The notes beneath the pieces were generated by a model that saw only the letters and a program-made list of their open reading frames with translations, was not told the origin of the DNA and did no database searches. A stretch of 64,000 nucleotides of DNA from the NCBI GenBank assembly GCA_030710605.1, contig CP092875.1, positions 67,904,754 through 67,968,753 of the forward strand, in the 5' to 3' direction. The first letter of the stretch is position 1; each line of letters starts with the position of its first letter. Position numbers and translations under genes: made by a program. The stretch is from Cordylochernes scorpioides. Its lineage: Eukaryota; Arthropoda; Arachnida; Pseudoscorpiones; Chernetidae. Of the stretch, positions 10,916 to 64,000 are shown piece after piece.

Positions 10916-11770
10916 TTTTTAAGCTGAAATGCTTAATTTTTCAGAAAATATTTCTGAATTTCTTCTATTTCAAACTCCAAATATCTTTCCTCTACTCTCT
11001 CGGTTTCTCTTTTGCTCGGTCTTCTATCCATTTGTGTCGCTAGTAATGATGATAAATTCACATTTTTATACACACAGGGAGTAATTTTAAATTTATTTTT
11101 TATAATTATATTTGTTCAGTACTAAATCTCCTTTTAATTATTCAGAGTCTCTACAACCAATGTAGGGTATACCCTGAGATAAGGTAGAGCTGGCACTTGG
11201 CATTTTGTTGTTTCAATAGCTGGCTGAAGGGTTGGCCACTGACTGGGCTACTGGATCGCGGGGCTCGGGTTAGGTCATAGGCTAGGTAATTGAATCTATG
11301 TGGTTCAGGGGATGGCCACAGACTGGTCCACTGGATGGGGCTATGGGGCTGACTTGGATTGATAATCCCTTCCTTTGTCTTAAAGTACATTTCTGAAACC
11401 TACACATATAATTGAACCACTATTTGTTGACTACGCGTCTATACTAGAAATATATTTCTTGTTCAAAACCTTGTAATTATTTCATTGTTTCGATAAAAAT
11501 ATATTTATGTAGTTGCCAAAAACCTTAAATAACAAATTGGAAATACCCGACATATTAGCTCATTACTGTTAGAGAATTTTTACCTAGAATTATATATAAT
11601 TTTTTCAACAGATGTACAATTGTTATCCTGATAAAATGAGAGAAAATGGAAGAGATTTTTTTCATTTTAAAATCAAATCATCATTAATATCACATACTAA
11701 GAGGATATTTATTCTTGGTATTAATGTCAAGGTCATATCTTATATAAAATTTTAAAGGTGACGAATAAAT
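10916..11770 (+). other. AT-rich segment with GC-rich island, unit 1
   Basis: An island at about 11150-11370 has imperfect internal duplication: GGTTGGCCACTGACTGGGCT and, about 85 bases on, GGATGGCCACAGACTGGTCC. A frame of 79 codons is open on the minus strand (11151-11390). Its counterpart in unit 2 (39969-40217) is also open but differs at many residues. No domain is recognisable. It is probably a decayed repeat and not a gene. Confidence 0.5.
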
Positions 11771-12140
11771 ATGTAAATTGAACAAATACCATCTGTAATG
11801 AGATGGTTCAATTTGTTCTCTATAGTTGAACTATACCAAAATCCTCTTCTATCAGAGTTGTTTATCAAGTTGGAATTATAATTTCCATAATATCAAAATC
11901 ATCTGCTTTGAGATGGTTGTCTAAAGTTAATTTAGAGTTGAATTATACCAAGATCATCTGATTTGATGTGGTCGCCATGTTGAAATTTATAATTGAATTA
12001 TATAAAAATCATCTGCTTTGAGATGGTGCTTAATAGTAATTTACAGTTGATTTATACTTAGATCATCTGCTATGAGGTGGTCACCGTAGTCATATTTTAT
12101 ATTTAAGTCATTCCAAGACCATCAGAAGAACTGTTCCTAT
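11771..12140 (+). repeat. 57-bp minisatellite C, unit 1
   Basis: Six diverged tandem units of about 55-60 bases. Each contains a version of AAAATCATCTGCTTTGAGAT followed by GGT and an AT-rich tail ending in TTGAATTAT. Units can be aligned at about 11785, 11835, 11895, 11950, 12005 and 12060. A matching array is at 40640-40995. No coding signal. Confidence 0.8.
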
Positions 12141-13411
12141 GTTCAATTCAACATGTGATCCACAATGAGTGATTTCTTCACTAAAACTGATTCATAGCAT
12201 CAACAGAGATGTTTATTATTAATCAACTTCAATAAATTAATGATAATATTATATGTATTATCAAGAGAATCTAGTTGTATACCATATTGCTTTTATAATG
12301 TTAAATTACAAAATATCTCAAAATCTTGAAATATCTTTTATTAACTTCCAAACTATTTAATTTTTTTATATTAATGAGTTTTTGAAGAATTTATGAACTT
12401 TGTCTAAATGGATGCCTATTCACCACTCAAACGAGCTCATACTTTGAAATAATTAATTAACAATAATTCAATTACATTTAGTTATAAATGTGCTTAATAT
12501 AATTTTCTGAGATTTAGATTTCTTAATATCCAATCATTAATATTGCAAAAATAATTTGGTAGAATATTATTTCTTTCTGAATATTATATTGATGTCTTTT
12601 TAATTTAAAAGAAATATTCATTAAAATATATCTACAAACATACCATGTTGATCTAATATTTATTTCTAATATATTTTTACCAATGCAACTCTATACTCTT
12701 ATATTTCAACAATAGTTACTTCCTCTCACCACTACTTTGAACTAATCTTTTTTGTGTGTTTTATAGATGTTTTAGCCAGCCTCCTACAAATTATACATTT
12801 CCTCACTTCAATCCTACAAAAAAACGGTTTTGCCATCAATAAAATTTTTTCAAACTCACTCATGCTGTGTCACTGAGTATTATAATATCCATTCATCAGT
12901 TGGAGAAATAATAGAAAACATAGATGACACCCCATCTAACTATAATATTCACAATACCCTTTGTATATATTTGAACATTCTGAATATTTAATAACAAGAA
13001 AAGCAATGTTTTACATTTCAGATCAATATATATATATATTTCAAATTGGTTTTCAATTTTTCCATAGAATACCTTTAGACACCTTTTACCAGATGACCGC
13101 CTTTTTGTTAAATTCTTATGATTTCATAGTTGCCTTATGAATATTAAAAATTATTAGTTCGCTCTGAACTGACGATGGCCTTAACATTATGGGCTCCAGA
13201 TGGGGCATTTTGAATTTTACAAAGCTGTTGTCGTGTCGGTTTGTCACAGGCCAAAACTTCTTGTTAGAAGAGACATTCAATAGATTTTACAATTTTTGTG
13301 TCAATATCAATAGATGAGATATCTAGTTCATGTTTATAGAATAATCCTCTTGACAAATTAGTTATGAATATTTGAAAGTATTAATGTTTTCGATTTAATG
13401 TTGAGGTGATG
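12141..13411 (+). other. AT-rich spacer, unit 1
   Basis: AT-rich sequence without recognisable genes, collinear with 41000-42785 in unit 2. The unit 2 copy is interrupted by the 351-bp head-to-tail element. No RNA gene or further inverted repeat of note was seen. Confidence 0.6.
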
Positions 13412-13413
13412 TA

Positions 13414-14698
13414 TTAGGAGTACAAATAAGTTTTGAGGGATTTTTTTTATAAATTCGAAGCTTTATTCAGAGAAACCAGCACAATATATTTCATTCAAAG
13501 TATTGTCCATCTTTAGCTACGACTTTTTTCCATCTTTCAGGCAGCATACGGATTCCGTGTCGAAAAAATTCCTCGTCTTTTGAGGCGATCCAAACATTGT
13601 GCCAATTTTTCGCCTCTTCGTAGGAAGTGAAGTGCTGCTCGGCCAGGCCATGTGTCATCGAACGGAACATGTGGTAGTCTGAAGGAGCAATGTCTGGTGA
13701 ATACAGCGGGTGGGATAGGACATCCCAATGAAGCGCCTCCAAAGTCTCCTTGACAACTTTTGCAACATGTGGCCGAGCGTTGTCGTGCTGAGAGAATACC
13801 TTGTCATGTCTTTTGGCATATAGTGGGCGTTTAATCTTCAATGCTCGGCTAAATCGCATCAATTGTTGTTGGTAACGTTCTCCAGTGATGTTTTCGTTAG
13901 GCTGAAGTAGCTCATAGTAGATCACTCCGAGCTGATCCCACCAGATGCACAGCATTAGCTTCTTGCCATGAATATTCGGTTTGGCCGTTGAAGTTGATGC
14001 ATGACCGGGCTTAACCGACGATTTTCTGCGCTTTGGGTTGTCGTAGTGAATCCACTTTTCGTCCCCCGTCACGATTCGATGCAAAAAACCCTTCCGATTT
14101 TGTCTTTTGAGCAGTAGTTCGCACGAGCAAATACGGCGTTCGATGTTTCCTGGCTTGAGTTCATATGGAACCCAATTTCCTTGTTTTTGCACCATACCCA
14201 TGACTTTGAGACGGTTCGAAATCGCTTGTTGAGTCACTCCCAAGGTTTCAGCGAGCTGCTCTTGAGTTTGGCTTTAATCTTCGTCCAATAAAGCCTCCAA
14301 CTCAGCGTCTTCGAACTTTATTGGCCTCCCTCCGCGTTCTTTGTCTCTGGTGTCAAAATCGCCACTTTTGAAACGCCGAAACAAGTACTCACATGATTTT
14401 ATTGATAGAGCATGTTTACCATATGCCTCACACAGCAATCGATGTCCATCAGTTGCACTTTTCTTCAAATTAAAACAAAAAAGCAGCGCTTCCCGCAAAT
14501 TGTGTTTTGTTGGCAAAAAGGTTGACATGGTTAGAGCACCAAAAAAAAAGTTCCTTACACTTGAGTGAAAAGACTTCTAATTTTTTTGGGGAAATGATGA
14601 AGCCTTAACATGAAACCTTACACAAGGTCCGATGCTATTTATATAATATTTGTTGTGGCTTCTTTTGCAAATCCCTCAAAACCTATTTGTACTCCCAA
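13414..14698 (-). mobile_element. Mos1-like mariner element (1285 bp)
   Basis: Inverted ends of about 28 bases: TTAGGAGTACAAATAAGTTT on the left, and TTGGGAGTACAAATAGGTTT on the other strand at the right. A TA target duplication lies at 13412-13413 and 14699-14700. Length and ends fit a complete mariner. Unit 2 has the unoccupied site near 42798 (GATGTAAAATATTC), so insertion followed the duplication of the array or is polymorphic between units. The transposase is on the minus strand. Confidence 0.95.
13491..14528 (-). pseudogene. Mariner transposase, DD34D, one in-frame stop
   Basis: Cut-and-paste transposase that would bind the element's own ends. Starts with MSTFLPTKHNLREALLFCF at 14528 and ends AKDGQYFE, about 345 codons, the normal mariner length. 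An N-terminal helix-turn-helix region is followed by WVPYEL, a family hallmark. The catalytic triad is visible: VTGDEKW, SQHDNARPH and YSPDIAPSDYH, with 34 residues between the second and third aspartates. By memory of the family it is closest to the mauritiana (Mos1) subfamily. The only obvious lesion is a TAA at 14274-14276, just after LLDED. The frame is the same on both sides, so it is a nonsense mutation and not a frameshift. Confidence 0.93.
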
Positions 14699-16069: not shown

Positions 16070-16302
16070 TATAAAAATATAAGTTATCTCTCTCGTCAAA
16101 ATAGACGTCTAGCTAGAGGCCATCTATTGACCGTCGCCGCAAACTAGCGGCCTCGGGTCAGTGACAAAATCACTACACCAGCTTTTGCAAACTGAGAAGC
16201 GCCCACCTAGAGACCATGGTTTCGGGCTAATGGTCTTCGTCAGCCTAAATGACGTCTAGCCTGACGTCTATTTTGACGGGAGAGGTTAACTTTATAAAAA
16301 AT
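16070..16302. mobile_element. MITE-like element with CGTCAAAATAGACGTC ends, unit 1
   Basis: Left end AAGTTATCTCTCTCGTCAAA plus ATAGACGTC; the right end on the other strand reads AAGTTAACCTCTCCCGTCAA plus AATAGACGTC. The interior is more GC-rich than its surroundings and has no reading frame. Its minus strand contains CTGACGA (16237-16243) and GAAAC (16219-16223) at the spacing of the hammerhead-like motifs. A copy is at 48445-48685. The target duplication is unclear because both flanks are AT-rich. Confidence 0.65.
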
Positions 16303-22434: not shown

Positions 22435-22629
22435 TAAGTAATAGAAACAAAGCATGCGAGGATGCGTATCTTATAAGTTTTAATAAAGGCGAGCTTTCGG
22501 GCTAATATCAGTCATAAGATGCAAGATCAGTCAGATATGATGTCCTGAAGAAGGGTTATTAGCCCGAAAGCTCGCCTTTATTAAAACTTATAAGATACGC
22601 ATCCTCGCATGCTTTGTTTCTATTACTTA
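22435..22629. mobile_element. 195-bp foldback element
   Basis: About 70-base inverted arms from TAAGTAATAGAAACAAAGCA to its complement at 22629 enclose a short centre. The arms contain GCGAGCTTTCGGGCTAATA. In the right half, CTGAAGA (22545-22551), 14 bases and GAAAG (22566-22570) form a hammerhead-like arrangement with a GGGTT/AGCCC stem. It lies directly left of Tc1-like A and after a CACTGGTTG sequence resembling that element's end. The duplicate copy at 28871 is empty. The target duplication is unclear. Confidence 0.7.
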
Positions 22630-22635
22630 ATTATA

Positions 22636-24132
22636 CACTGGTGTCCAAAAAATAAGAAACTTAACCAATATTGAAATTTCTCAAAAGTTAATTTATTAAC
22701 AAATATAAATTTTAGTATACAAATAGTTTAAACTATGGAGAATTTGACTAGCTATATGAAAATAAAAATATATATATTTGAAATTATGAAATATGCAAAT
22801 TATTACCAACATACCCAAAGGTAAGGTTCCACATCTTAAAGAAATAAGATATAAATAGGGAGTATGATCACCTCTAACAGCTATCAAGGTCTCACAGCGA
22901 GCCCTCATACTGTTTACCAGGCTTTGGAGGAGGTCCAGTGGTAGTAAACCCCACTCCTCCAATAGAAACAGTTCTTAGCTCAACGAGGGTTCTGGAAGAG
23001 GGGTGACGAGCTCCAATACGCCTCCCTAGAGCATCCCACACATGCTCTATTGGATTCAGGTCCGGAGATCTGGCTGGCCAATCCATCCTTCGAATATTCT
23101 CACTCTGGAGATATTCATTGACTAGCCCAACCCTATGCGGACGAGCATTATCGTCCATAAAAATTAAATTGTGACCAATTTGATCTCTATAAGGTCTTAG
23201 ATAGGGCTCAAGGATCTCGTCCCTGTACCTTTGGGCAGTTGAAGTGCCCCCAGAAAAAATGTGGAGGGGTGTGAGTCTGCTAGAACTGATGCCAGCCCAG
23301 ACTAAGAGACTGCCCCCTCTAAACCTGTCTATTCCCTGATGTTACTGGGATGATAGCGGGTTCCAGGCTCCCTCCAGATGAAAACTCGTCGAGAATCTGT
23401 GTTTAAACTAAATCTTGACTCGTCACTGAAGAGAACATTGGCCCACTGATCATGAGTCCAGGCGTGATGTTCCAAGCACCAATTCAAGCGGGATCTCCTG
23501 TGAGCAGAGGTTAAAAGGATACAGACCATTGGTCGTCTTGCATAAAGAGCACCTTCGTGAAGCCTTCGGTAAACAGTTTTTCTTGAAATTCTCGTTCCGG
23601 GAAGCACTTGAGAGTTCTTTTGAGAGTTGAATAGCTGTCATCTCCCTATGGCGCTTGGCAGTTACGACCAGATGACGGTCTTCAGAGGTAGCTGTTTTTC
23701 TTTTTCTACCAGAACCTTCTTTTCTTTTGATGGTTCCTGTCTCAATGAACTGTTTCCCCATTTTGCTGACCACAGATGTATTCACATTTAGCCATTTTGC
23801 TACTTCAACTTCTGATTGCCCTGCCTCCATTCTTCCAACAGCTCTCCATTTTAAATCATCTGTTAAAATTTTTCGTAAACTCATAATTAACTATGGATTA
23901 AATAAAATTATAATTGGACAATTCTTAGATGGGGTAAACGACACGCCAAATAGCACACTTATAAAGACAAGCAAAAATTTGCATATTTTCAATTTTACCG
24001 AATCGAATGGTTGCGATAAATAAATTATACGACTTAAAATACCTAATTAAATTACTTTTTAGCTTTTAGCGTTGTATATTTTGAAACATATCATTAAAAA
24101 AACAAATGTTTCTTATTTTTTGGACACCAGTG
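22636..24132 (-). mobile_element. Tc1-like element A (1497 bp)
   Basis: Perfect inverted ends CACTGGTGTCCAAAAAATAA plus GAAAC, with TA duplications at 22634-22635 and 24133-24134. The paralogous site at about 28875 (GCTATTATATTTGTTTTC) is empty. The transposase is on the minus strand. Confidence 0.93.
22892..23884 (-). pseudogene. Tc1-like A transposase, DD34E, frameshifted
   Basis: Cut-and-paste transposase of the Tc1 branch. It starts MSLRKILTDDLKWRAVGRM at 23884; a paired helix-turn-helix region includes EVEVAKWLNVNTSVVSKM and a GRKRKT basic linker. Catalytic motifs are LFSDESRF (about 23420), FMDDNARPHR (about 23155) and RSPDLNPIEHVWDALG. Frameshifts occur near 23600 (after the HTH region), near 23330, and near 22960 just before the C-terminus. 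All three catalytic residues remain, but the reading frame is broken, so it is inactive. Confidence 0.9.
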
Positions 24133-24680
24133 TATTTGTTTTCTGTAAATTTTTATATATGAAAAAAAAAAGATTGGTTTAAATAACGAATTTAGAATTA
24201 TTTTGTGTTTAATTCAAAATATTTTTATCTTTCACAACTTATTTAATTTTAATCTTTTATTTTTTAATTCTCTCAAAAGAGATTTTAATGAAAGACTAAA
24301 ATGCTTTAAAATGGATTTATGTGAAAACAAATTTTGTATTCATATGTTAACATACTGTCAGACCACACCTTAAAAGCCTGAAAATTTGCACCTAGGCTCA
24401 ATCAGATGACAATGAATGTTTATAAAATTCCAGACACCTATGCGGATAGAATGTATGTTAAATTTTAAAATATGCAGAAATATAACAAACAAACAAAGGA
24501 AAAAAAACATTGCACAAATAAAATTAAAGACTATATGATAAGATAAGGGTTCAAAATTATCACAGAAAACTTGCTAAAAAACAAAGATAAAGCAAGCAAA
24601 CGATGGAAAATAAAAGAAAGTGGTAAAAACAAATGAATAATTTATGTCTGAAAATATATTTTAAATAAATAAATATCAGA

Positions 24681-24780
24681 NNNNNNNNNNNNNNNNNNNN
24701 NNNNNNNNNNNNNNNNNNNNNNNNNNNNNNNNNNNNNNNNNNNNNNNNNNNNNNNNNNNNNNNNNNNNNNNNNNNNNNNN
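24681..24780. other. Assembly gap (100 N)
   Basis: Exactly 100 N, the conventional placeholder for a gap of unknown size. Left of it is unit sequence equivalent to about 2650. Right of it is the integrase part of copia 1. The same unit sequence resumes without a gap near 29400. Confidence 0.99.
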
Positions 24781-25772
24781 TGATCTTCTCTATTTTCTTA
24801 GTGATTATGTCATACACTCGATAAGCCTTTCTTTTCAGAGAATAGCCTACAAAAAATACCTTTTCGACTTTTAGGCATAAATTTACTTCTTATGTTGTTG
24901 TGTAATGGGCCAAAACGCCAAACAACCGAATATTCTGAAATTTCGAATGGAGGGTTTTCTTCCTTTCATTTCTCCATTGGTGTATCAAGCTTGATTGACC
25001 TATGTGGAGTACAGTTTTTGACATATGATGCAGTAGCGACTGCCTCCGCCCAGAAAGCCATGGGTAATCTGAATCAAACCATAATGTCCTTGCTGTTTCA
25101 ATTAGGGTTCGGTTTATTCTCTCCGCAACTCATTACTTTGTGGCGAGTAGGTGGTGGAGAGTTGGTGGTGTATTCCATTTTTAATTAAGAAATTCTTTAA
25201 TCTGTGATTAGTGAACTCTGTGCCATTATCAGTTCGCACATCCTTTATTTTCAGGTTTAGCTCATTTTCCACTCTTGCCTTAAATTCTTCAAACTTCCCC
25301 AAAGTTTCATCTTTGCTTTTCAGGAAGTAGATAAAGGTTCTTCGGCTGAAATCATCAACCAGAACAAAAAAGTATTTTGATCCACCTAGAGATTGGTATG
25401 GCATTGGACCACATAAATCCATATGCACCATTTCAAGGGGTTTGGTTGTACAGTTGGTGGTAACGGGATGCGAAGGTTGCCGAGTCAATTTCCCCATTAT
25501 ACAAGTTTCACATTCTGGCAAGTTCTTGAATTTTACATTAAACCTTAATACCACATTCCGTTGAATTATCTCTTTCATGTACGCTTCGTTCAAATGATTC
25601 AGTCTTCTATGCCACAAGCTGATATTGTCATTTGAGAAATCATCTTTTGTAGTCATGACATTCTCCGTCTTTTCCGAGTATTCATCTCTGGACCTTGTTT
25701 CCATTACATACATCCTATCCTGGATTTGAGCCTCTTCAATTAAATCATCCTGTTCATTGTAAATCTTGCTCC
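24781..25772 (-). pseudogene. Copia 1 integrase (frameshifted)
   Basis: Joins retrotransposon cDNA to host DNA. The N-terminal zinc-binding part reads LWHRRLNHLNEAYM and CETCIMGK. The catalytic core shows VHMDLCGP, RTDNGTEF and the start of the third acidic motif near 25120, where QSNELRRE marks a frameshift. The family has a glycine-rich turn and GxxER there. Coding similarity continues in another frame to the gap (IETARTLWFDS, FGPLHNNIRSKFMPK). Frame continuity with the protease to the right is also broken near 25775. Confidence 0.85.
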
Positions 25773-25775
25773 ATC

Positions 25776-26081
25776 CTATTGAAAATTACAGTATTTCCTT
25801 TTGTTGGTTAATTCGTATATTGATAAAAGATTAGACCTTAAGTTAGGTACATGCAGAACTCCTTTAATTTGAACATTCTCAATTCCGTTTTCGGTACAAG
25901 TAGAAACCTTGATATCACCTTTAGCTGTAGCATGTGTAACTTTACCTTCTTCTGCCAAATTTATCTCACTTTCATAAGGCATTACATTTTCCATCCAGTC
26001 CAAGTGTGGAGATAAGTGCGTAGTACACCCTGAGACAAGACACCAGGTTTGTATCTGACTATAATTATTTGAGGTTTTCAA
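25776..26081 (-). pseudogene. Copia 1 protease, active-site residue changed
   Basis: Aspartic protease that would cleave the polyprotein. The active-site region reads TWCLVSGCTTHLSPH where the family has DSG; the catalytic aspartate is replaced by valine. The downstream GVLHVPNLRSNLLSI is the usual flap-to-integrase linker. It overlaps the end of the gag frame by 17 bases in a different frame and ends at a stop at 25776. Confidence 0.8.
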
Positions 26082-32979: not shown

Positions 32980-34399
32980 CACTGCGTGACATTGAAAATG
33001 GAACACCAAGAAATAGTGGCCAGAAAGTGATGAAACTCGGCAGACAGAGAGAGACAGGGACTAACAATAAGTGATCTTTATTTCAAAATGGTAGTCATAA
33101 TACAGAGCGAGAACGGCGTCGGCTTAGTAGCAAGTAGGACCACCGCGGACGGCGATGCACGCAGCAACACGTCTAGGTAGAGAGTCAATCAGAGTACGGA
33201 TGGCGTCCTGAGGGATGGCTCTCCATTCCCTCTCAACCATTTGCCACAGTTCGTCTTCTGAACGCGGCTGTGGCAAGGCATGCAAACGGCATCCAATGAT
33301 GTCCCAGACGTGCTCGATTGGTGAGAGATCAGGAGAGTACGGTGGCCAGGGAAGCATCTGTACATCTTGCAGAGCTTGTTGGCTAATGCGAGCAGTGTGC
33401 GGTCGGGCGTTATTCTGCTAATAAAGTGCCTTGGGTACCCCCTGAAGGTAGGGGAGTGTCACCGGTCGCAGCACATCATCAACGTATCGTTGGGCCGTCA
33501 TGGTTTCCCTGAATACGAAGTAAAGGTGACCTGGAATCATACGCGATTGCGCCCCAAACCATGATTCCACGTTGTCGCACTGTGGGGCGTTCCACAATTG
33601 CTGCCGGATTGGACCTTTCTCCACGTCGACGCCACACGCGTACACGGCGACTATCACTGGACAAGCAGAAACGCGACTCATCTGAGAACACGACCCTGTG
33701 CCATTCCGTCATCCACATCGATCTAGCCCGGCACCATTCCAAACGTTGGCGCCTATTCGGTGGGGTCAATGACAGTCTTCTTAGCGGACGGCATGAGTGC
33801 AAGCCATTAGCAACCAATCGACGGGAAATGGTTCTGGTCGAGATGGAATGATCTAGGGTGTCTTGCACATGTTGCAGGATGGCGGTACAAGTGGCTTGTA
33901 GGGCCGCCACTGCTTGTCAAAGGATACGCCGATCCACACGTGCTGACGTCACTCTTGTTGCACCGACATTCCTATAAATTGCCACATTTCCTTGTTCCAA
34001 CCATCTTCTCCACAGTCGGTGCACCGTGGACGCACCAAGGTGTGTATCAGCTGCGATTTGACGTATGGACCAACCTGCCCTTTTCAGTCCGATCACCATG
34101 CCCCTCGTAAAAGCGTCTGTCTGCTTGAACTGCCTCCGTTTACGATGACCTAGCATTCTCTATTATTACACGTGTCTTTTGACACAAGAACAAAATTTCT
34201 ACAATGATTTTCCTTGAAGAAATAACGACACGAATACTGTCCTTTCTGCAAGTTCCTTCCCTTATATCTTACTCCATGTGCGCACGAGGGCCGCGCATTT
34301 TACATCTTTTGCATAACTCGGTTAGGCGCTTCTACCCTGAAATTTGCATAATTTTCTGGCCACTATTTCTTGGTGTTCCATTTTCAATGTCACGCAGTG
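32980..34399 (-). mobile_element. Tc1-like element B (1420 bp)
   Basis: Perfect 47-base inverted ends beginning CACTGCGTGACATTGAAAAT. TA duplications at 32978-32979 and 34400-34401. The unoccupied site in unit 1 is at about 5350 (TTCCATATATATTTCGG). It is more GC-rich than its surroundings. Confidence 0.95.
33124..34156 (-). pseudogene. Tc1-like B transposase, catalytic residue lost
   Basis: Starts MLGHRKRRQFKQTDAFTRGM at 34156. The helix-turn-helix region (WSIRQIAADTHLGASTVHRL) ends at a TGA (33917). The catalytic core holds VVFSDESRFCLSSDSRRV and WPPYSPDLSPIEHVWDIIG (DD34E type). A frameshift near 33480 and a TAG near 33418 follow. The second catalytic motif, normally QQDNARPH, reads QNNARPH (about 33410), so an aspartate has become asparagine. 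The end is AVRGGPTCY at 33124. Transposition by this protein is not possible. Confidence 0.92.
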
Positions 34400-36357: not shown

Positions 36358-36401
36358 TATATTTGATTTAAATATAAATAAATATTTATAAATTTACTCC
36401 C

Positions 36402-36577
36402 AATGCGCTTCTTTTAAATATCATCAAATTTTATCTCTACAGACCTAACTGCAATGATATGAGCTATTGAATGAGAGGGCTTGGCTCATCAGTAGTGAAC
36501 CCTCTCATTCAATAACTCATATCATTGCAGTAAGGTCTGTAGAGATAATATTTGATGATATTTAAAAGAAGCGCATT
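36402..36577. mobile_element. 176-bp hairpin MITE, unit 2 copy
   Basis: Equivalent of 7350-7525, same length. The arms pair slightly better here (ATTGCAGTAAGGTC against the left arm). Confidence 0.75.
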
Positions 36578-36638
36578 GCCAGTAAATTTATTTGTGTAAA
36601 TTTTAACGATAGATGGCATTTAAATTTAATTTACTAAT

Positions 36639-38414: not shown

Positions 38415-39745
38415 CCATTTGACCCCCAAAACATTCTTGATATTGTGGTATGTTATTCCTTTTTGTTCTAGATCCCCAATATACCCTTGATATTGGAGAT
38501 TGTTTTTCATTTTTGCTCTATATCCCCAATATACTCTTGATATTGGGGGTTGTTATTCATTTTTGTTCTAGATCTCCAATATACTCTTGATATTGGAGTT
38601 TGTTACTCCTTTTTGGTCCAGATCTCCAATATAACTTCGATATTGGGGTTTGTTATTCCTTATTGTTCTAGATCTTCAATATAATCTTAATATTGGAGTT
38701 TGTTATTTCTTTTTGTTCTAGATCCCCAATATACCCATGATATTGTGGTTTGTTATTGCTTTTTGGACTAGATCTCCAATATACTCTTGATATTGAAGGT
38801 TGTTATTCCTTTTTGTTCTAGATCTCCAATATACTCTTGATTTTGGAGTTTGTTACTCCTTTTTGGTCTAGATCTCCAATATACCCTTGATATTGGGGTT
38901 TGTTTTTCCTTATTGTTCTAGATCTCCAATATAATCTTGGAGTTTGTTATTTCTTTTTGTTCTAGATCCCCAATATACCCTTAATATTTGGGGTTGTTAT
39001 TCCTTTTTGTTCTAGATCTCCAAAATACTCTTGATATTGGAGTTTGCTCTATATCCCCAATATACTCTTGATATTGGGGGTTGTTATTCATTTTTGTTCT
39101 AGATATAATTTACCCTTGATATTGTGGTTTGTTATTCTTTTTTTGGACTAGATCTCCAATATACTTTTGATATTGGAATTTGTTATTCCTTTTTGTCCGG
39201 ATCTCCAATATACTCTTGATATAGGGGTTTGTTATTCCTTTTTTGACTAGATCTCCAATATACTCTTAATATTGTGTTTTGTTATTCTTTTTGTTCTAGA
39301 TCTCCAATATACCCTTGATATTGTGGTTTGTTTTTCCTTTTTGGACTATATCTCCAATATACACTTGATATTGGAGTTTCTTATTCCTTTTTGGGGTCCA
39401 GATCTCCAATATACTCTTAATATTGGGGTTTGTTATTCCTTTTGTTCTAGATCCCCAATAAACCCTTGATATTGGGGTTCGTTATTCCTTTTTGTTCTAG
39501 ATCTCCAATATATTCTTGATATTGGAGTTTATTATTCCTTTTTGGTCCAGATTTCCAATTTCTCTTGATATTGGAATTTGTTATTCCGTTTTGTTCTATA
39601 TCTCCAATATAATCTTGATATTGGATTTTGTTATTACTTTTTGTTCTAGATCTTCAATATACTCTTGATATTGGAGTTTGTTATTCCTTTTTGTTCTAGA
39701 TCTCCAATATACTTCTGATATTGGAGTTTGTTATTCCTTTTTGTT
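38415..39745 (+). repeat. Palindromic 50-bp minisatellite B, unit 2
   Basis: About 26 copies of the same unit as at 9361-10915. Several variant copies occur in a different order or are missing, so copies were gained and lost after the macro-repeat duplicated. Confidence 0.9.
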
Positions 39746-40640
39746 AAGCTGAAATGCTTAATTTTTCAGAAAATATTTCTGAATTTCTTCTATTTCAAAC
39801 TCCAAATATCTTTCCTCTTCTCTCTCGGTTTCCTTTTTGCTCAGTCTTCTATCCATTTGTGTTTCTAGTAATGATGGTAAATTCACATTTTTATACACAC
39901 AGGGAGTAATTTTAAATTTATTTTTTTTATAATTATATTTGTTCAGTACTAAATCTCATTTTAATGATTCAGAGTCTCAACAACCAATGTAGGGTATACC
40001 CTGAGATAAGGTAGAGCTGGCACTTGGCATGTTGTTGTTTTAATGGCTGGCTGAAGGGTTGGCTACTGACTAGGCTACTGGATCGCGGGCCTCGGGTTAG
40101 GTCATAGGCTAGGCAATTGGGTCTATGTGGTTCAGGGGATGGCCACAGACTGGTCCACTGGATGGGGCTATGGGGCTGACTTGGATTGATAATCCAATCC
40201 TTTATCATAAAATACATTTCTGAAATCTACGAATATAATTGAACCACTATTTGCTGACTACGCGCCTATACTAGATATATATTTCTTGTTTAAAACTTTG
40301 TAATCATTACATTGTTTCGCTAAAAGTATATTTATGTAGTTGCCAAAAACCTTCACTAACAAATTGAAAAATATGATTTCTCTTGATAATGAAGGTCAAC
40401 GATGAAAAGAATAACCAACATATTAGCTCATTACTGTTAGAGAATATTTACGTAGTATTATATATCATTATTTTCACAGATATACAACTGTTATCCTGAT
40501 AAAATGAGAGAAAATGGAAAATATATTTTCATTTTAAAATCAAATCATCATTATTATCATCTACTAAGAGTATATTTATTCATGGTATTAATGTCAAAGT
40601 CATATCTTATATAAAATTTTAAAGTTGACGAATAAATATG
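39746..40640 (+). other. Segment with GC-rich island, unit 2 copy
   Basis: Collinear with 10916-11770. The island lies at about 39970-40190. There is a short local insertion near 40370-40405 (TGATTTCTCTTGATAATGAA) that is absent from unit 1. No gene recognised. Confidence 0.5.
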
Positions 40641-40995
40641 TAAATTGAACAAATAACATCTGTAATGAGGTGGTTTAATTTGTTCTCTCTATAGTCGAAC
40701 TATACCAAAATCATCTTCTATCAAAGTTGTTTGCCAAAAGTTGGAATTATTATTTCCATAATATCAAAATCATCTGCTTTGAGATGGTTGTCTAAAGTTA
40801 ATTTAGAGTTGAATTATACCAAGATCATCTGATTTGAGGTGGTCGCCATGTTGAAATTTATATTTGAATTATATAAAAATCATCTGCTTTGAGATGGTGC
40901 TTAATGGTAATTTACAGTTGATTTATTCCAAGATCACCTGCTATGAGGTGGTCACCTTAGTCATATTTTATATTTGATTCACTCCAAGACCATCA
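40641..40995 (+). repeat. 57-bp minisatellite C, unit 2
   Basis: Same six-unit array as at 11771-12140, with copy order preserved, so it was fixed before the macro-repeat duplicated. Confidence 0.8.
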
Positions 40996-41607
40996 GAAGA
41001 ACTGTTCCTATGTTCAATTCAACATGTGATCCAAAATGAGGGATCTCTTCTCTAAAACTGCTTCATAGTATCAACAGATATGCTTATTATTAATCAACTT
41101 CTATAAATTAATGAAAATATCATATGTATTATCAAGAGAATATAGTTGTATACCATATTGTTTTTATATTGTTAAATTATAAAAGATCTCAAAGTCTTGA
41201 AATATATTTTATTAACTTCCAAACTAATTAATTCATTCAAATTAATGAGTTTGAAGAATTTATGAACTTTGCCTAAATAGATGCCTATTCTCGACTGAAA
41301 CAAACTCATACTTTGAAATAATTAATTAACAATAATTCAATTACGTTTTCTTCTAAATGTGCCTAATATAATTTTCTAATTTAGATTTCTTAAAGGCCTA
41401 TCATTAATATTGTAAAAATAATTTGGTGGAATATTATTTCTTTCTGAATATCATATTGATGTATTTTTAATTTCAAGAAATATTCATTAAAATATATCTA
41501 CAAACATACCATGTTGATCTAATATTAATTTCTAATATATTTTTACCAATGCAACTCTAAACTTTCATATTTTATTTATTTATTATATATATATATATAT
41601 TATTATG

Positions 41608-42045
41608 AAAAAACAATAGAAAAAAATAAAAGATAAGTGGGTCAGGTGTTGATATTAAAAATAAATAAGGCATCTCCTGACCACGAGCACATGTGCTTTT
41701 TAGATGGCAGAGCGCCATCTAGTGGAGCAAGAATAAACTAAACGTTTATTTAGCTTGCTCCGTGATATTTGGCAAACCCAATTTCTTGATAAATCAAGAA
41801 AAGTCATCCACGAACGCGTTTCGCGCTGTTGTAGCTCGTCAGCGTTGAGTAGACTGTAACCACTGCGACCAAAAATATTTTTGGAACCAATGCCTACTTG
41901 AGAAATCAAGAAATGGGTATTTAAAGCCAAATTTGCGTAAAGACGCTTAACAAATAAAAAAAAACAATAGAAAAATATAAAAGATAAGTGGGTCAGGTGT
42001 TGATATTAAAAATAAATAAGGCATCTCCTGACCACGAGCACATGT
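41608..42045 (-). mobile_element. 351-bp head-to-tail element with hammerhead-like motif
   Basis: A segment of about 87 bases (GGGTCAGGTGTTGATATTAA ... GACCACGAGCACATGT) occurs at 41608-41694 and again at 41959-42045, offset 351 bases. The stretch is therefore 1.25 copies of one 351-base unit. Between the direct repeats lie two hairpins (AGATGGC/GCCATCT at 41702-41720; AATAAAC/GTTTATT at 41731-41750) and, on the minus strand, CTGACGA...GAAAC (about 41841-41817). Unit 1 has no such sequence near 12705; TA-rich sequence flanks it on both sides. There is no reading frame. It fits a retrozyme or a Penelope-like terminal repeat pair. Confidence 0.6.
41817..41841 (-). ncRNA. Hammerhead-like motif inside the 351-bp element
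   Basis: On the minus strand: AACG, CTGACGA, GCTACAACAGCGC, GAAAC, GCGTTCG. CUGANGA and GAAA are intact. The bases outside (AACGC and GCGTT) are complementary. Stem II is weak (GCT/AGC with two extra bases). A cleavage triplet of the GUH type is not obvious next to GAAAC. Confidence 0.4.
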
Positions 42046-43500
42046 TATTATTATATATTATTATTATTCATATATTTCAACAACAGTTACTTCCTATCAC
42101 CACTACTTTGAACTAATCTTTTTTTGTGTGTTTTATAGATGTTTTAACCAGTCTGCTCTAAATTATACATTTCCTCACTTCTATCCTACAAAATAAAAAT
42201 AAAAAACGGTTTGGCAATCAATAAATAATTTTCAAACTCACTCATGCTGTGTCACTGTTCATTATAATATTCATTCATCAGTTGGAGAAATGATAGAAAA
42301 CATAGATGACACCCCATCTTACAATAATATTCACAATACCCTTTGTATATATTCGAACATTCTAAATATTTAATAACAGGAAAAACAATATTTTACATTT
42401 CAGATCAATATATATATTTTTTTTTCAAATTGAATTTCAATTTTTCCATAGATTACCTTAAGAAACCTTTTACCAGATGACCGCATTTTTGTTAAATTCT
42501 TATTATTTCATAGTTGCCTTATGAATATTAAAAATTCTTAGTCCGCTCTGAACTGACGATGGCCTTAACATTAAACTATGGGCTCCAGATGAAGCGTTTT
42601 GAATTTGACAAAGCTGATGTGGTATCGGTTTGTCACGAGATAAATCTGCTAGTTTGAAGATACAGTCAATGGATTTTACAATTTTTGCATCAATATCAAT
42701 AGGTGATATAGCTAATTCATTTTTATAAAATAATCCTCTCGACAAATACATTATCAATATTTGAAATTATTAATGTTTCCAAATTATATTGAGGTGATGT
42801 AAAATATTCTGAAGATAAAAAATGGCCAAGGTAATTATTTATCAAGGGACTCTAAGGACGGGAATGTTATTGCTATCTCTATTTTGGAATTAGGATCTTT
42901 TGTATTTGACTATGGACCAGCACCTTGACAGTAGATTTTCTTGACCATCAAATCACGTATTAAAATTGGAAGATGATTGTATATTTAGGTAAGCAAAGCG
43001 GGAAATCTTATTTTAAACAATGTATTTTACAAATGAACATTTCATATGGTATTCTTTCCTTAAAATTGGAACCATAAATTCACATTTTTCACTTTCCTTC
43101 ATACATTTTTGATAGATACAAACACTTGCTCTCTCCCTCTCATGACTCCTGTTTTCATCGTATGAAATTGAAACTTTGTACTATATTGTTCAAGACCCTA
43201 GCCGAAGCCATGGTATAAAGGTTGGCAATTTGTTAAATTAACAAAATTGATGTTGTAGCTCATTATTTATCACCACCATTATGTTTAATAGTAGGTGATA
43301 AACAAAATGCACTATTTTAATGATTATTTAATGGGAGAGATTTTTATTATGATAACATATTAATAATATAAATTCCCCATTATAGACAAACTTAAAGGAA
43401 GTTATACCTTTTAGCATGTATATCGGGATTATGGCCTTAGCTATTAAAGATATTTGATACAGAATGAATTTTATTGAATACGCACGAAATAACCAAATGT
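42046..43500 (+). other. AT-rich spacer, unit 2
   Basis: Collinear with 12720-13411, 14701-15173 and 15851-15960 of unit 1, and carries the unoccupied sites of the mariner (about 42798) and the miniature LTR element (about 43350). No gene. Confidence 0.65.
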
Positions 43501-44480
43501 GAACAATATTTCCTTTGGAGATGATCACCAACTTATCAGGGAGCTGTTTGAGTCTAAAGCCTTCATTTAGAAGAACAAAGTTTCGCTGCTGCTAGTAATC
43601 CATGTCTTTACGTCGAAAGTCACGACCTCATGTTTAAGAGAAACCATCTTGCATTAGGGCGAAGTACCGCGACGAAGTACTTATTACATATAGAAATCGG
43701 GAAATTCCAAATCGCTAACTTCTCCGCCCGTTTCCTATAAAGAAAGGTTTTCAGAAGAGTGGCCCCAATGGTGAGGCCCTCTTCAACTAGGCGCTCCACC
43801 AGAATTAGCCGAATAGCCCAAACAAAGGCTGATCTGACATCTTCATTATTTGTAATACCGATGATTTTCCAAGCATTTCCCCCAGGGCCTTAGTGTCGTC
43901 CACCGAGGATAGATAGAGCCTCTACTCCACAAAGCAGAACTGGTCAAAGGTGGCTGCAGCTGACCTGGAATTACTCAGGGCCTGCTACTGTTTTCTGTAT
44001 TGCAGCTCTGTAACAGCATACCTCTTTGGTGGTTAAGATGGCTTGGCTGCCCTGTCGTGGGTGGTGTTGATTTGGTGAGATGTGCCAGGCTGAGGCCTAC
44101 GAGCCTGTTAATACGAAGACGAGATATTTTTATTTTTCCTTTTGCGTTTCATCTGATCATCTTATTCTGATTATTCTACTCCCATTATCTGAGCCCAATC
44201 CCGGTTTGTTGGGTGATAATTCAGATTTACTTCTATCAATTTGGTCGAATCCTCATAATTTCCATTAATTCTTGGTTCAGCTTAATCCAAAAATCAAATA
44301 TTTTCTGCTGATTTATTTGAAATACTATAGTATTCTGAACTTTTGATTACGCCATTATGTAAGGAATTTTTCCGGCTTTCTGCCGATACCTCAATGCATT
44401 GTAAATCTTTATCTTGATCAGCTTTTTCATCTGATAATCGTGGAACTCACGCGCCTCGTGGCCGCACGGTTAAGAGAGAA
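43501..44480 (+). other. Unit 2-specific segment of unknown origin
   Basis: Breaks collinearity with unit 1 at about 43500 and has near-balanced base composition. Minus-strand frames of moderate length occur around 43690-43870 (with SAFVWAIRLILVERLVEEGL), but stops interrupt them. I do not recognise a family. It may be the left part of the insertion that carries copia 2, or another decayed retroelement. Confidence 0.4.
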
Positions 44481-44509
44481 AGAGAGACAATCAACATAAA
44501 TTTATTTTT

Positions 44510-44640
44510 AATTAAAAAGGCATATATTGGGTCAAAATATCTTTTATTTTACCAATATTTCAGTTGGCTGAACGCCAACCTTTATCAAGGTGTTATAACA
44601 TTTTAAAGTGTGTCAACAACAAACTCAGCGCCACATAACG
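44510..44640 (-). mobile_element. PLE-like terminal fragment
   Basis: GGCATATATTGGGTCAAAAT and, on the minus strand, CTTGATAAAGGTTGGCGTTC then AGCCAACTGAAATATTGG. It matches the arms of the palindrome at 63478-63711. The hairpin GTTGGC/GCCAAC is intact, but the first core element is not CTGANGA. A short leftover of that family. Confidence 0.5.
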
Positions 44641-44859
44641 TAAACAGCATTTAGTTTTTAAAATATTTTGTTATATTCAATTTATTTACCCTCTGCCAAT
44701 ACAGTTCGTACTAAAAAGTAAATGAAAACGAGAAATTTACAATAATGTGATGACAATTATATAGATAATAATTAGATATATATATAATGTACAGTGAAAA
44801 TGTACATGAGATCTCTGCCACCGTTTCAGAATCTGATGGAAAATCGCCAGAGTCTTAAA

Positions 44860-45800: not shown

Positions 45801-46699
45801 ATTTTTATTAAAACAAAGCAATCTTCACAAACTCATGTTGCTCAGTTAAGTCTAGATATATGGCATCAAAGATTGGGTCATGTAAATCCTATAAAATTAA
45901 CCCAAATGTTTGAAATTAATATTTTTGAAGAAAATATTAGAATTAGAGAAAAGCCTGATTCTTTACTATGTGAAGCATGCATCTATGGAAAACAAAATAG
46001 AAAAGTTTTTCACGCGTCAACAAGTTCAAATTCGACCTATCCAAGAGAGCTGATCTATTCAGATGTTTGTGGACCAATGAGTAAAAGATCACCAGGTGGA
46101 TCATTATATATTTTGTATCATTCAAGGATGATTTTTCAAGATTTAGAGTGGCCTACTTCATTAGGCATAAATCAGATTTATTTGAGAAATTTAAAGAATT
46201 TGTAAAAACAGTTAGGACTGAAACTGGAAATAAAATAAAAAGATTCAGAACAGATAATGGCACAGAATTCTTAAATAATAATTTTTCTGATTATCTAAAA
46301 TCTCTAGGATTTGTTCATGAACTCACTGCTCCATATACCCCAGAACAGAATGGAATTTCTGAAATAGATAACAGAACAATAGTTGAATCAGCTAGATGCT
46401 TGTTACATGTAAGAAAGATGCCGCTTGAACTGTGGGCTGAAGCCGTAAACACAGCAGTCTATCTCTTAAATAGATGTACTACTAAAGTATTGGGAAATTC
46501 TACACCTTATGAAATATGGTACAAGAGAAAACCCTCCATCTTACATTTGAAAACTTTTGGATGTAACGCTTATGTGCATATACCAAAAGATAACAGAAAG
46601 AAATTAGACAAAAAGAGTATTCGTACATTTTTGTTGGATATACTGAAACTAACAAAAATTATAGAATGTGGGATCCTATTGCTAGAAAAATTATCATAA
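45759..46699 (+). pseudogene. Copia 2 integrase (frameshifted)
   Basis: The HHCC zinc domain reads WHQRLGHVNP and CEACIYGKQNRK. The core begins IYSDVCGPMSKRSPGG. A frameshift near 46150 moves the frame. Then come FRTDNGTEF and PYTPEQNGISE, where the third acidic motif expected as GxxER reads GISEID. It continues through WAEAVNTAVYLLNR to about 46699. Multiple lesions; inactive. Confidence 0.85.
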
Positions 46700-46911
46700 G
46701 CAGAGATGTAATATTTACTGAAGCTAATACATCAGAAAATATTAATTATTATATAGTGAAGAAGGTGTTGATAGCACAAATACCAGTTCCAAACCAAAAG
46801 AATCATGTCGATAACCTCTCAGGAATAGAATCAGAGAAAAGGAACAATCATCAACCAACTGTACAAGAGCTATTTCATATGCTTGTTATGTCCATGACCA
46901 AGAACCATTGA
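46666..46911 (+). pseudogene. Copia 2 integrase-RT linker
   Basis: In another frame, WDPIARKIIISRDVIFTE is the conserved motif that follows integrase in copia polyproteins. A poorly conserved spacer leads to the reverse transcriptase start. Confidence 0.7.
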
Positions 46912-47925
46912 ACTATGAAGATGCAATTGTAGGACTAAACTCAAAAAAGTGGAAACTAGCTATGGACGATGAATTCAATTCCTTGATGAAAAATCAAACA
47001 TGGACTTATGTGACACTACCATCAGACAGAAAAGCTATTGCATGCAAGTGGGTATACAAAATAAAGCAAAATGCAGATGGATCAAATAAAATATTTAAGG
47101 CTAGACTAGTTGCGAAAGGTTATTCACAAAAATCAGGACTTGATTATGGTGAAACTTTTTCTCCAGTAGTAAAATTCGATTCAATTAAGTTACACTCTGT
47201 ACCTTCTGATCCTTACTCAGAACTAACAAAAGAGATGTGCCCAAAGGATAATCAAGAAATTGAAGAAATGAACAAGATTTCATACAGACAGACAATTGGT
47301 AGTTTAATGTACCTCATGACTGGAACTAGACCTGATATTGCCTACGCAGTCAGCAGGGTTAGCCAATTTATGAACAACCCAGGACCTTCACATTGGACCG
47401 CAGTAAAGAAAATATTTGGATACTTAAAAGCTACGAAAAACATCGGTATTTGTTTTGGTGGGAGTTGCTGCACTAGATCTCTGATAGGTATTTCCGATGC
47501 TGATTTTGCTGGAGACCTAGACACAAGAAAATCAACCACCGGATATGTGTTCATGTTGAATAATGGACCTATTTCTTGGTGCAGTCAAAAACAGAATAGT
47601 TTGTCTCTGTCAACAACAGAATCTGAATATATTGCGGCTTCCAAAGCAACGAAAGAAGCAATTTGGCTGAGACAACTTCTACGCGAGCTACATCAAGAAC
47701 AAGTAAAGCCTACAACAATTTTTGCGACAATCAAATCTGCATAAGACTTGTTCACAACCCAGAATACCACAAAAGAACTAAACATATTGATATTTCGTAT
47801 CACTTTATCAGATATCAATTTCAAAAACATGCAATTGACCTTCTTTATGTCTGCTTCAATGATCAAGCTGCAGACATATTTACGAAATCTCTACCTCCAG
47901 AAAGGTAGAGAAGACTTGGAAGCCA
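46908..47925 (+). pseudogene. Copia 2 reverse transcriptase-RNase H, catalytic core deleted
   Basis: It begins normally (LAMDDEFNSLMKNQTWTYV, ACKWVYKIK, ARLVAKGYSQ, YGETFSPVVKFDSIK). At about 47190 it jumps in frame to sequence that normally follows the catalytic domain (VPSDPYSELTKEMCP). The stretch expected to carry the DVKTAFL aspartate and YVDD is absent. RNase H follows (YRQTIGSLMYLMTGTRPDI, STTESEYIAA). A frameshift near 47700 leads to the last part (TKHIDISYHF, DIFTKSLP). The protein could not synthesise DNA. Confidence 0.9.
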
Positions 47926-48444: not shown

Positions 48445-48685
48445 CTATAAAAATATAGGTCACCTCTCCCGTCAAAATAGACGTCAAAAAGATGCCATCT
48501 ATCAACCGTCGCCGCAAACTAGCGGCCTCAGGTCGGTGATAAAGCCACAACACCAGTTTTGGCAAACTGAGAAGCGTCCACTTGGGGACCAGAGGTTTCG
48601 GTCTAATGGTCTTCGTCAGCCTAGATGACGTCTAGCTTTATGTCTATTTTTACGGTAGAGGTTAAATTTATAAATATATATATAA
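48445..48685. mobile_element. MITE-like element with CGTCAAAATAGACGTC ends, unit 2
   Basis: Equivalent of 16070-16302. Minus-strand CTGACGA at 48619-48613 and GAAAC at 48599-48595. Confidence 0.6.
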
Positions 48686-54620: not shown

Positions 54621-55640
54621 TCTACATCATATGATATGCCTAAATTGGTGGTGTGGTTTAAATATATTAGGGTTCTTTTGATGTTTATAATATCTTGAGT
54701 TGTAGGATCATGCATTGACCTGTTTTCAAAATTTGTGGCAAATGTCATGTCTGGTCTAGTTTTGTTTGTCAAATATAAAAGGCTTCCAATTGCTTGTCTG
54801 TAGGGAAATTTGTTATCATTTGATATTTCTAAGTTTTTGTCTAATTCTTTTACTACATCTGTAATGGGAGTGGGTACTGGTTTTGAGTTTTGCATATTAT
54901 ATCTTTCAAGAACTGATTTTGCATAATTTTCTTGTGAAAGTAAAATTTTATTTTTTTTCCTCAAAACACAAATTTATTCCCAAAAAAGTTCTTGGATCAT
55001 TGTTTATTTTAACTTCAAACTCTTGGGATAGTTTTTCTAAAATATTATTTAATTCTTCTTCATTATCTCCCATTAAGATACCATCATCTACATATATTGC
55101 AAGGTACATATTTCCTTTGTTGGTTTTAAAAAGACATGGCTCTGATTTTAGTTGTATGAAATCTTGGGATTTGAGAAAGGTTTTTAATCTTTCATTCCAT
55201 TTTAATGGGGCTTGCTTTAAACCATACAATGGCTTTCTTAACCTACATATATTCCCTTTATAACCTTCTGGCAATTGAACATATATTTCTTCATCCAAAA
55301 ACCCATATAGAAAAGCTGTTTTTATGTCAAATGTTTTAAAAGCAAACTTTTTCTTAGCCATTAAAGCAAAGTATATCCTTAAAGAGACAGTGCTTATAAC
55401 TGGACTGAATGTCTCATCATAATCAATGCCTGCTTCTTGTTCAAAGCCTCTTACAACTAGTCTTGCTTTGTAGCGGCCATCTTCTTTCACTTTAAAGAGC
55501 CATTTAGAGGTCAGAATCTTCTTGTTTGACGCTTCATTTTCTTTTACTATTTCCCAAACTTCATTTTTGGCAAGAGACTCTTTTTCTTCTTTTATTGCCT
55601 TTTTCCATTTTTCTTGATTTGGACCAGATATAGCTTCAGA
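54575..55640 (-). pseudogene. Copia 3 reverse transcriptase
   Basis: Synthesises cDNA. Open piece 55490-54948 contains YKARLVVRGFEQEAGIDYDE, TFDIKTAFLYG (first catalytic aspartate), CRLRKPLYGLKQAP and the polymerase site YVDDGILMG, all intact. A frameshift at about 54955 leads to the piece 54964-54575 (NYAKSVLERYN, IGSLLYLTNKTRPDM). Upstream of 55490, in the same region, coding similarity continues to about 55640 with WEIVKENEAS-like sequence in another frame. Catalytic motifs preserved, frame not. Confidence 0.88.
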
Positions 55641-55816
55641 GTAAGTTAGAAGAGCTGATTCTGTTGTTCCATCCTGCTCTAAATAGAGGTCTTCATATCT
55701 TGATGGTGTTTGTAAACTACTTCTTGGTCTAAGATTATATTTTGAAGTACTTGGTTTTGTAGGGATATCTTCTTTGTCTTCAGAGATTTCTGTTAGACTT
55801 GGTTCTTCATTTAATT

Positions 55817-56722
55817 CTAGTTGATCTTCAGATTCTTCTTCTGGTTCGACAATAGGTATTTTTCTTCTTTATTTATTAATCCTTTATGTAAAAAAATTAC
55901 ATCTCTAGCTGTAAAGATTCGTTTGCTTTGTTCATCCCAAAGGCGATAACCATTTGGTGCATAACCTATAAAGGTATATTTTTTACTTCTGTCTTCCAAT
56001 TTCTTTATGTGTTTTAGGGTTTTGACATAAGCTTCACAACCAAAAAGTTGTAAGTTTGACAAATTTGGTCTTTTGTTGAACCAAAGTTCTGCAGGAGTTT
56101 TCTCTAATTCTTGAGTAGGGCTTCGGTTCAGCAAATAGGCTGAAACCCTTACAGCTTCTCCCCACATGTATTTTTCTACACCAGAATCAATTAAAAGAGC
56201 TCTAGTTTTCTCCATCAGGGTTCTATTTAATCTTTCGGCTTTGCCGTTTAGCTGAGGTGAGTGAGGTATGGTGAGATCCATAATGATTCCTTTAGCTTTG
56301 CACCAGGATTTTATATCTTCATTTACATATTCTCCGCCATTGTCACATCTTATTTTTGAAACTTTTAGATTCATTTGGTTTTCTGCTTCTGTAATAAATT
56401 CTTTTAGATATCGTTTTACTTCATATTTATTTTGTAACAAATACACATGACAAAAATGTGTGTAGTCATCAAGAAATGTTAGAAAATAGTTTTTGTTGTC
56501 ATGGGTAGTGGGATCTAAAGGTCCACATACATCTGTATGGATCATTTCTAAAGGCCTTTTTGATTTTGTTCTAATGGAATTGAATGGCTTTCTTACCTGT
56601 TTAGCTTTTATGCATGTTTCACAAATTTCATCTTGACTTACTTTTTCTATGTTTATTCCATTAACCATAGAATTTAATTGTTTTAAGCGTGAAAACTTAT
56701 GTGACCCATTTTTCTTTGCCAT
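55817..56722 (-). pseudogene. Copia 3 integrase
   Basis: The longest open frame in the window, 301 codons. It starts within the zinc domain (CETCIKAKQVRKPF). The catalytic core has IHTDVCGPLD, KIRCDNGGEYV and SPQLNGKAERLNRTL, so all three acidic residues are present. Then RVSAYLLNRSPTQ, LFGCEAYV and RLWDEQSKRIFTARDVIF follow. The N-terminal HH part of the zinc domain lies in another frame near 56740. Confidence 0.9.
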
Positions 56723-63755: not shown

Positions 63756-64000
63756 TGATCCCCAATACACTCTTGATATTGGGGTTTGTTATTCCATTTT
63801 GGTCTAGATCTCCAATATAACCATGATATTGGAGTTTGTTATTCCTCTTAGGGGTCCAGATCTCCAATATACTCTTTATATTAAGGATTGTTATTTCTTT
63901 TTGGTCCAGGTCTCCAATATACTTTGACATTGGAGTTTGTTATTCCTTTTTGGGGTCCAGATCTCCAATATACTCTTGATATTGGAGTTTGTTATTCCTT
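63756..64000 (+). repeat. Palindromic 50-bp minisatellite B, unit 3 (cut)
   Basis: First five copies of the array; continues beyond the window. Confidence 0.9.

Follow-up and report, generated by a model that had tools for sequence, protein, structure and literature searches.

The repeated element and its insertion site

The window, which is the whole 64,000-base stretch of DNA analysed here (GC 31%), holds a long segmental repeat, units 1 and 2, and within unit 2 a short element built of head-to-tail copies of a 351-nt unit. Ten of the 51 listed open reading frames (ORFs) were searched against Pfam, and seven of these matched transposase or integrase/reverse-transcriptase families. The ORFs with Transposase_1, DDE_3, HTH_Tnp_Tc3_2 or integrase/RVT_2 domains lie at 13491-14273, 22892-23341, 25114-25785, 33479-33916, 46085-47744 and 54948-55868, and we take them to be broken mariner/Tc1 and Copia-type elements, which suggest that the DNA is from an animal, perhaps an arthropod. 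Tandem arrays of 50 bp are located at 9378-10917, 38435-39745 and 63757-64000, about 29 kb and 25 kb apart, and recur together with the long segmental repeats. A 27-base pattern for a satellite 50-mer had no match in viral contigs. A run of N at about 24,560-24,889, inside an open frame, is probably an assembly gap (100 N in the whole window).

The element and the sites that define its insertion are as follows.

41608-42045, minus strand taken as RNA sense: whole element, 1.25 head-to-tail copies of the 351-nt unit
41608-41694, minus strand: terminal direct repeat, copy 1, at the 3' end of the sense RNA
41959-42045, minus strand: terminal direct repeat, copy 2, at the 5' end of the sense RNA, differing at 1 of 87 positions
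41564-41572, plus strand: likely target-site duplication, left copy, TTCATATTT
42067-42077, plus strand: likely target-site duplication, right copy, TTCATATATTT
12699-12706, plus strand: empty site in unit 1, with a single TTATATTT

The minus strand is taken as the RNA sense because the hammerhead match described below sits on it. The 87-bp direct repeats (41608-41694 and 41959-42045) are spaced 351 bp apart and their sole mismatch is 41625 A/41976 T, so that the 1.25 head-to-tail copies of a 351-base unit claimed in the initial annotation are found as described. The GC content of the element is 0.36. Its longest open frame is 101 aa from stop to stop, a length equalled or exceeded in 189 of 3000 shuffles, and its longest Met-started frame is 35 aa (at least 35 aa in 2021/3000 shuffles). 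Pfam gave no match in six frames across the element, which is thus not convincingly coding, in agreement with the earlier view of it as non-coding. Within the 64-kb window, blastn found no other stretch resembling the element over more than 43 bases and there is no full dimer of the unit; the element is a single copy there.

The long segmental repeat makes the homologous place of insertion readable in unit 1. The left flank of the insertion aligns to 12029-12706 (91%) and the right flank to 12694-13413 (87%), and the site between them in unit 1 is uninterrupted, confirming that the element is absent there. The element is likely an insertion in unit 2 with a target duplication of 9-11 bp. AT-rich simple sequence (41573-41607 and 42046-42066) lies between the duplication copies and the element and blurs its exact ends. 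A short TTATTAT stands at both borders, separated from the element by one G on the left, and the insertion site is composed of ATT/TA repeats. A deletion in unit 1, instead of an insertion in unit 2, is less likely because one copy of the duplication would have had to be removed exactly.

Hammerhead candidate and predicted folds

Within the element, four features were mapped on the minus strand.

41802-41856, minus strand: candidate type I hammerhead, identified by descriptor match, with no Rfam match
41778-41917, minus strand: long imperfect inverted repeat (arms 41778-41798 and 41897-41917) enclosing the hammerhead candidate in the predicted fold
41701-41721, minus strand: 8-bp hairpin TAGATGGC/GCCATCTA, paired in the fold and overlapping the CTCF-like motif
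41712-41725, minus strand: CCACTAGATGGCGC, which matches the human CTCF consensus CCASYAGRKGGCRS at every position

The sequence CTGACGA...GAAAC, reported earlier for the minus strand, is present within 41812-41842. The order of parts on this strand is AGTC-TACTCA-ACG, CTGACGA, GC-TACAACAGC-GC, GAAA, CGCG, TT and CGT-GGAT-GACT. These provide a distal stem I (AGTC/GACT), a proximal stem I (ACG/CGT, 3 bp), the core CTGACGA, a stem II (GC/GC, 2 bp), GAAA, a stem III (A-CGCG-T) and U17. In hammerhead numbering, this type I order has its core at C3-A9 and G12-A14, with A15.1-U16.1 capped by CGCG and followed by U17. At its invariant core positions, in the A-U pair and H17 and in stem I order, the candidate agrees with type I. 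This geometry predicts cleavage between 41813 and 41812, which replaces the cut near 41817 proposed at first. Stem II is left with 2 bp, its right arm exceeding the left by two bases, and a loop II pseudoknot, sought as 4-5 bp of complementarity to sequence on either side of stem I, was not found. We give the distal stem I no weight, since in loops of this size a match of 4 bp is likely to arise by chance, in our judgement and not by computation.

A descriptor script, run on both strands and demanding three or more pairs in stem I, two or more in stem II, the A-U pair of stem III and H17, matched once in the 64-kb window, inside the element. By chance, at the scale of the element (441 nt, the unit with 90 nt added), the descriptor matched in 7 of 20,000 shuffles; for the whole window it matched 15 times in 100 shuffles, or 0.15 expected matches per window. 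Two further places, at 16210 and 48587, have the same CTGACGA...CGAAAC seed and were rejected as hammerheads when they failed the stem tests of the descriptor. Both seeds (16210-16243 and 48587-48619, minus strand) are located within two copies of an element that is unrelated to the 351-bp unit and has imperfect inverted ends of about 50 bp (arms 16077-16126/16246-16295 and 48440-48487/48637-48684).

No Rfam hammerhead model matched in the window at its gathering score, and none matched at E 10 in 64,000, 651 or 106 bases, so the covariance check that the initial annotation had proposed for the motif came back blank, an outcome which that annotation had itself named as counting against its reading. 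We take this as weak evidence against a hammerhead, because a longer-stemmed motif on a viral contig (L001, from IMG/VR) also scored low, at 19.3 bits against a cut-off of 48.5. This putative ribozyme, recognised by sequence and retrieved with a pattern from the window's own hammerhead core, is a type I hammerhead-like motif at L001:11178-11237 (minus strand) that reached its 19.3 bits in Rfam Hammerhead_3, a type III model and the best-scoring one of the clan, for which the table displays no lower-scoring models. The script gives its stems 4, 5 and 4 pairs, and its predicted fold resembles the hammerhead three-way junction; among the four retrieved sequences L001-L004, the script matched this motif and nothing else.

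Weighing more heavily against a hammerhead are the predicted energies, which leave tertiary contacts out. They are -3.8 kcal/mol for the 55-nt stretch constrained to the hammerhead and -14.9 kcal/mol for a rival hairpin on the same bases (about 11 better); with the stem III A-U pair imposed, the hammerhead fold rises to +3.3. The rival hairpin pairs AACGC with GCGUU. The flanks AACGC/GCGTT named at the outset are therefore complementary and paired in the minimum-energy fold, but they belong to the rival hairpin and do not make a hammerhead stem. Prediction of a two-copy complex likewise gave rival helices between the copies, not a hammerhead dimer; ACGCGU/ACGCGU pairing could in principle form in a dimer. 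Natural hammerheads commonly have a two-pair stem II (PMC3088659, available text), and in amphibian retrozymes stem III is a single pair capped by a palindromic tetraloop, with better cleavage in dimers (PMC7229834, available text). Given 2 bp in stem II and, in stem III, a single A-U pair under the self-complementary CGCG, a weak, degenerate or dimer-acting ribozyme is probable for this copy.

The whole sense unit has a predicted fold of -104.3 kcal/mol (z -6.6), with none of 100 shuffles as low, and the hairpins noticed earlier in the unit appear in the minimum-energy fold. A second run with 60 shuffles each gave z values of -6.3 (linear) and -8.5 (circle) for the sense strand and -6.0 (linear) and -6.1 (circle) for the antisense strand, and the linear fold barely separates the strands (-6.3 vs -6.0). 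As controls, 351-nt tiles at steps of 1,400 bases were each compared with 20 shuffles; 4 of the 92 strand-tiles fell below z -6, all of them in two strong inverted repeats.

22435-22629: arms of 73 bp, 100% complementary, with a 49-nt gap
36388-36591: arms of 92 bp, 95% complementary, with a 20-nt gap

The paired fraction of the circular fold is 0.59, compared with more than 70% given for animal retrozymes in the available text of PMC4918200.

Relatives and known systems

Relatives were sought in collections other than animal genomes, namely viral contigs, genome contigs, phages and plasmids. Four patterns taken from the element were run on viral contigs; one retrieved L001 and three were blank. 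L001 has a GC content of 65% and matches the element only at the hammerhead core (36 nt, E 0.044), together with a 17-nt match at chance level. Two pattern scans of genome contigs returned 0 and 3 stretches, and the best matches of those three to the unit are 18-19 bases long, where about seven chance 18-mer matches are expected in 257 Gb (our own estimate, assuming equal base frequencies). Alignment by blastn to phages and plasmids gave no relative of the element. In these pattern scans and blastn comparisons, no copy was found.

Animal retrozymes are described in the available text of PMC7229834 as non-coding repeats of 150-450 bp with type I hammerheads and no primer-binding site (PBS) or polypurine tract (PPT), with GC below 50% (below 45% in a legend), from many phyla including insects and crustaceans. 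Like the metazoan non-LTR retrozymes treated there (Cervera and de la Pena 2020, PMC7229834, available text), which have non-coding units of about 170-400 nt arranged head to tail, low GC, type I hammerhead order and a strong predicted fold, the element has a non-coding unit of 351 bp, within the range of about 150-450 bp, with a GC content of 0.36, in 1.25 head-to-tail copies. As for the type I hammerhead, the descriptor matches, Rfam is blank and the predicted energy is unfavourable. Metazoan retrozymes are expected to lack LTRs, PBS and PPT and to have a target duplication, where there is one, of more than 4 bp; here there is a likely duplication of 9-11 bp blurred by AT-rich sequence, and PBS and PPT were judged by eye. 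The element is unlike metazoan retrozymes, compared by description only, in having 1.25 units, one hammerhead, a 2-bp stem II, U17 and a paired fraction of 0.59. The single pair of stem III with its palindromic tetraloop recalls the amphibian HHR_Amex1 (PMC7229834, available text).

Other systems share part of this architecture. Penelope-like elements/Terminons resemble the element in their weak type I hammerhead, partial tandem copies and AT-rich target (PMC11167929; PMC7761336, the latter from its available text), and differ from it in that the Pfam scan of the element and the 5 kb around it gave no reverse transcriptase or GIY-YIG domain. Plant LTR retrozymes are likewise small non-coding hammerhead retroelements thought to move via circular RNA (PMC4918200, available text). 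Theirs are type III hammerheads in direct repeats of about 300-400 bp, with PBS, PPT and 4-bp target duplications (PMC4918200, available text) and GC above 55% (PMC7229834, available text); the type III hammerhead in such repeats and the 4-bp duplication are not shared by the element, in which the core order is type I and the terminal repeat is 87 bp. Repeats of newt, schistosome and cave cricket are also similar, being a few hundred bp long and bearing type I hammerheads, and those of newt show dimeric cleavage (PMC6155905, PMC4918200, available text of both); they are set beside the element by description only.

Origin of the element

On balance, the element is probably a non-LTR (animal-type) retrozyme that was inserted here as a single copy. 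This reading has its observed basis in the repeat, the empty site, the probable target duplication, the hammerhead base order and the strong predicted fold. It is the best available chiefly because the hammerhead order falls inside a head-to-tail element, and it is not proven because there is one copy, without covariance support and with an unfavourable fold. The initial annotation had already proposed a retrozyme: the size, low GC, non-coding content, head-to-tail copies, AT-rich insertion, strong fold and type I core order are consistent with that proposal, and the Rfam result and the named flanks are not.

A non-coding satellite or short head-to-tail fragment might instead have moved in, for example through extrachromosomal circular DNA or recombination, its hammerhead-like core being a coincidence in hairpin-rich sequence. 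Coincidence is made easier by the CTGANGA...CGAAAC seed that recurs at 16210 and 48587, within an unrelated element with inverted repeats, by the absence of an Rfam hammerhead match, by a competing hairpin more stable than the hammerhead and by the roughly 0.15 loose descriptor matches that each window yields by chance. We nevertheless regard it as rather unlikely, given a match inside a head-to-tail element, where chance produced 7 in 20,000, with invariant core, A-U pair, H17 and stem I order all right for type I.

Truncation of a Penelope-like element could have left a pseudo-LTR remnant, in which partial tandem copies and minimal hammerheads would look alike. Such elements have minimal type I hammerheads (PMC7761336, available text) and show partial tandem copies, one of them preferring ATT and starting internally in vitro (PMC11167929), and the insertion site here consists of ATT/TA repeats. 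A remnant is still distinctly unlikely: a six-frame Pfam search of 39,900-44,851 at E 0.1 detected no reverse transcriptase, GIY-YIG or other match, and the 351-bp unit joins head to tail, leaving no space for a polymerase ORF. A parent element may lie elsewhere; for the remaining window, 10 of the 51 listed ORFs were scanned with Pfam. The two near-identical direct repeats around a short non-coding interior also recall a terminal-repeat retrotransposon in miniature (TRIM), with 87-bp LTRs flanking 264 bp, but inspection by eye found repeats that do not start with TG and end with CA, no exact 4-6 bp target duplication abutting them and no obvious primer-binding site, all of which makes a TRIM highly improbable.

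A further proposal concerns the CTCF-like motif, for which one consensus match was found against 0.01 expected; the consensus is the human one (PMC6746451, available text) and the motif is known here by sequence alone. The CTCF-like sequence could be held by RNA structure alone, because it overlaps the 8-bp hairpin. Some mammalian SINEs disperse insulator sites. In the same manner, a retrozyme bearing the motif in an RNA hairpin might, as a self-cutting circular RNA parasite, disperse insulator sites on insertion, which we consider very unlikely. No literature joining the hammerhead ribozyme with CTCF on such a theme was found, as judged by titles.

For the retrozyme that we favour, a course of events can be proposed in which we infer cleavage, circularity, a helper and any current mobility. 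The 351-nt unit would be transcribed on the minus strand, its type I hammerhead would cut the RNA at 41813/41812, and the RNA would either circularise or stay multimeric. A reverse transcriptase acting in trans, most plausibly Penelope-like or LINE, would then prime at an AT-rich genomic nick. Copying would start 205 nt downstream of the cleavage site and cover one full turn of the template plus 87 nt, giving 1.25 copies. In sense coordinates, worked out from the repeats and the motif, the copied RNA begins 119 nt and ends 205 nt downstream of the cleavage point. As neither insertion end is the cleavage site, the copied RNA would have crossed the cleavage junction a single time, as expected of circular or multimeric RNA. 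Copying of a circle for 1.25 rounds, or of a multimer left uncut, would explain the read-through, and copying of a cut linear monomer would not. Published models have retrozyme circles copied by LINE- or Penelope-type reverse transcriptases (PMC7229834, available text). A Penelope protein studied in vitro cleaves AT-rich DNA at ATT and begins reverse transcription at an internal position, and in the same work hammerhead cleavage was dispensable for insertion in vitro (PMC11167929).

Retrozymes are a kind already known, to which the element, on the best reading, adds one more. If confirmed, the motif would suggest that Rfam hammerhead models can miss motifs of such shape. The element would also supply, for a class described largely from arrays, an insertion whose paralogous site is empty, and its ends, with priming 205 nt past the cleavage site and an ATT-rich target, would bear on how retrozymes integrate.
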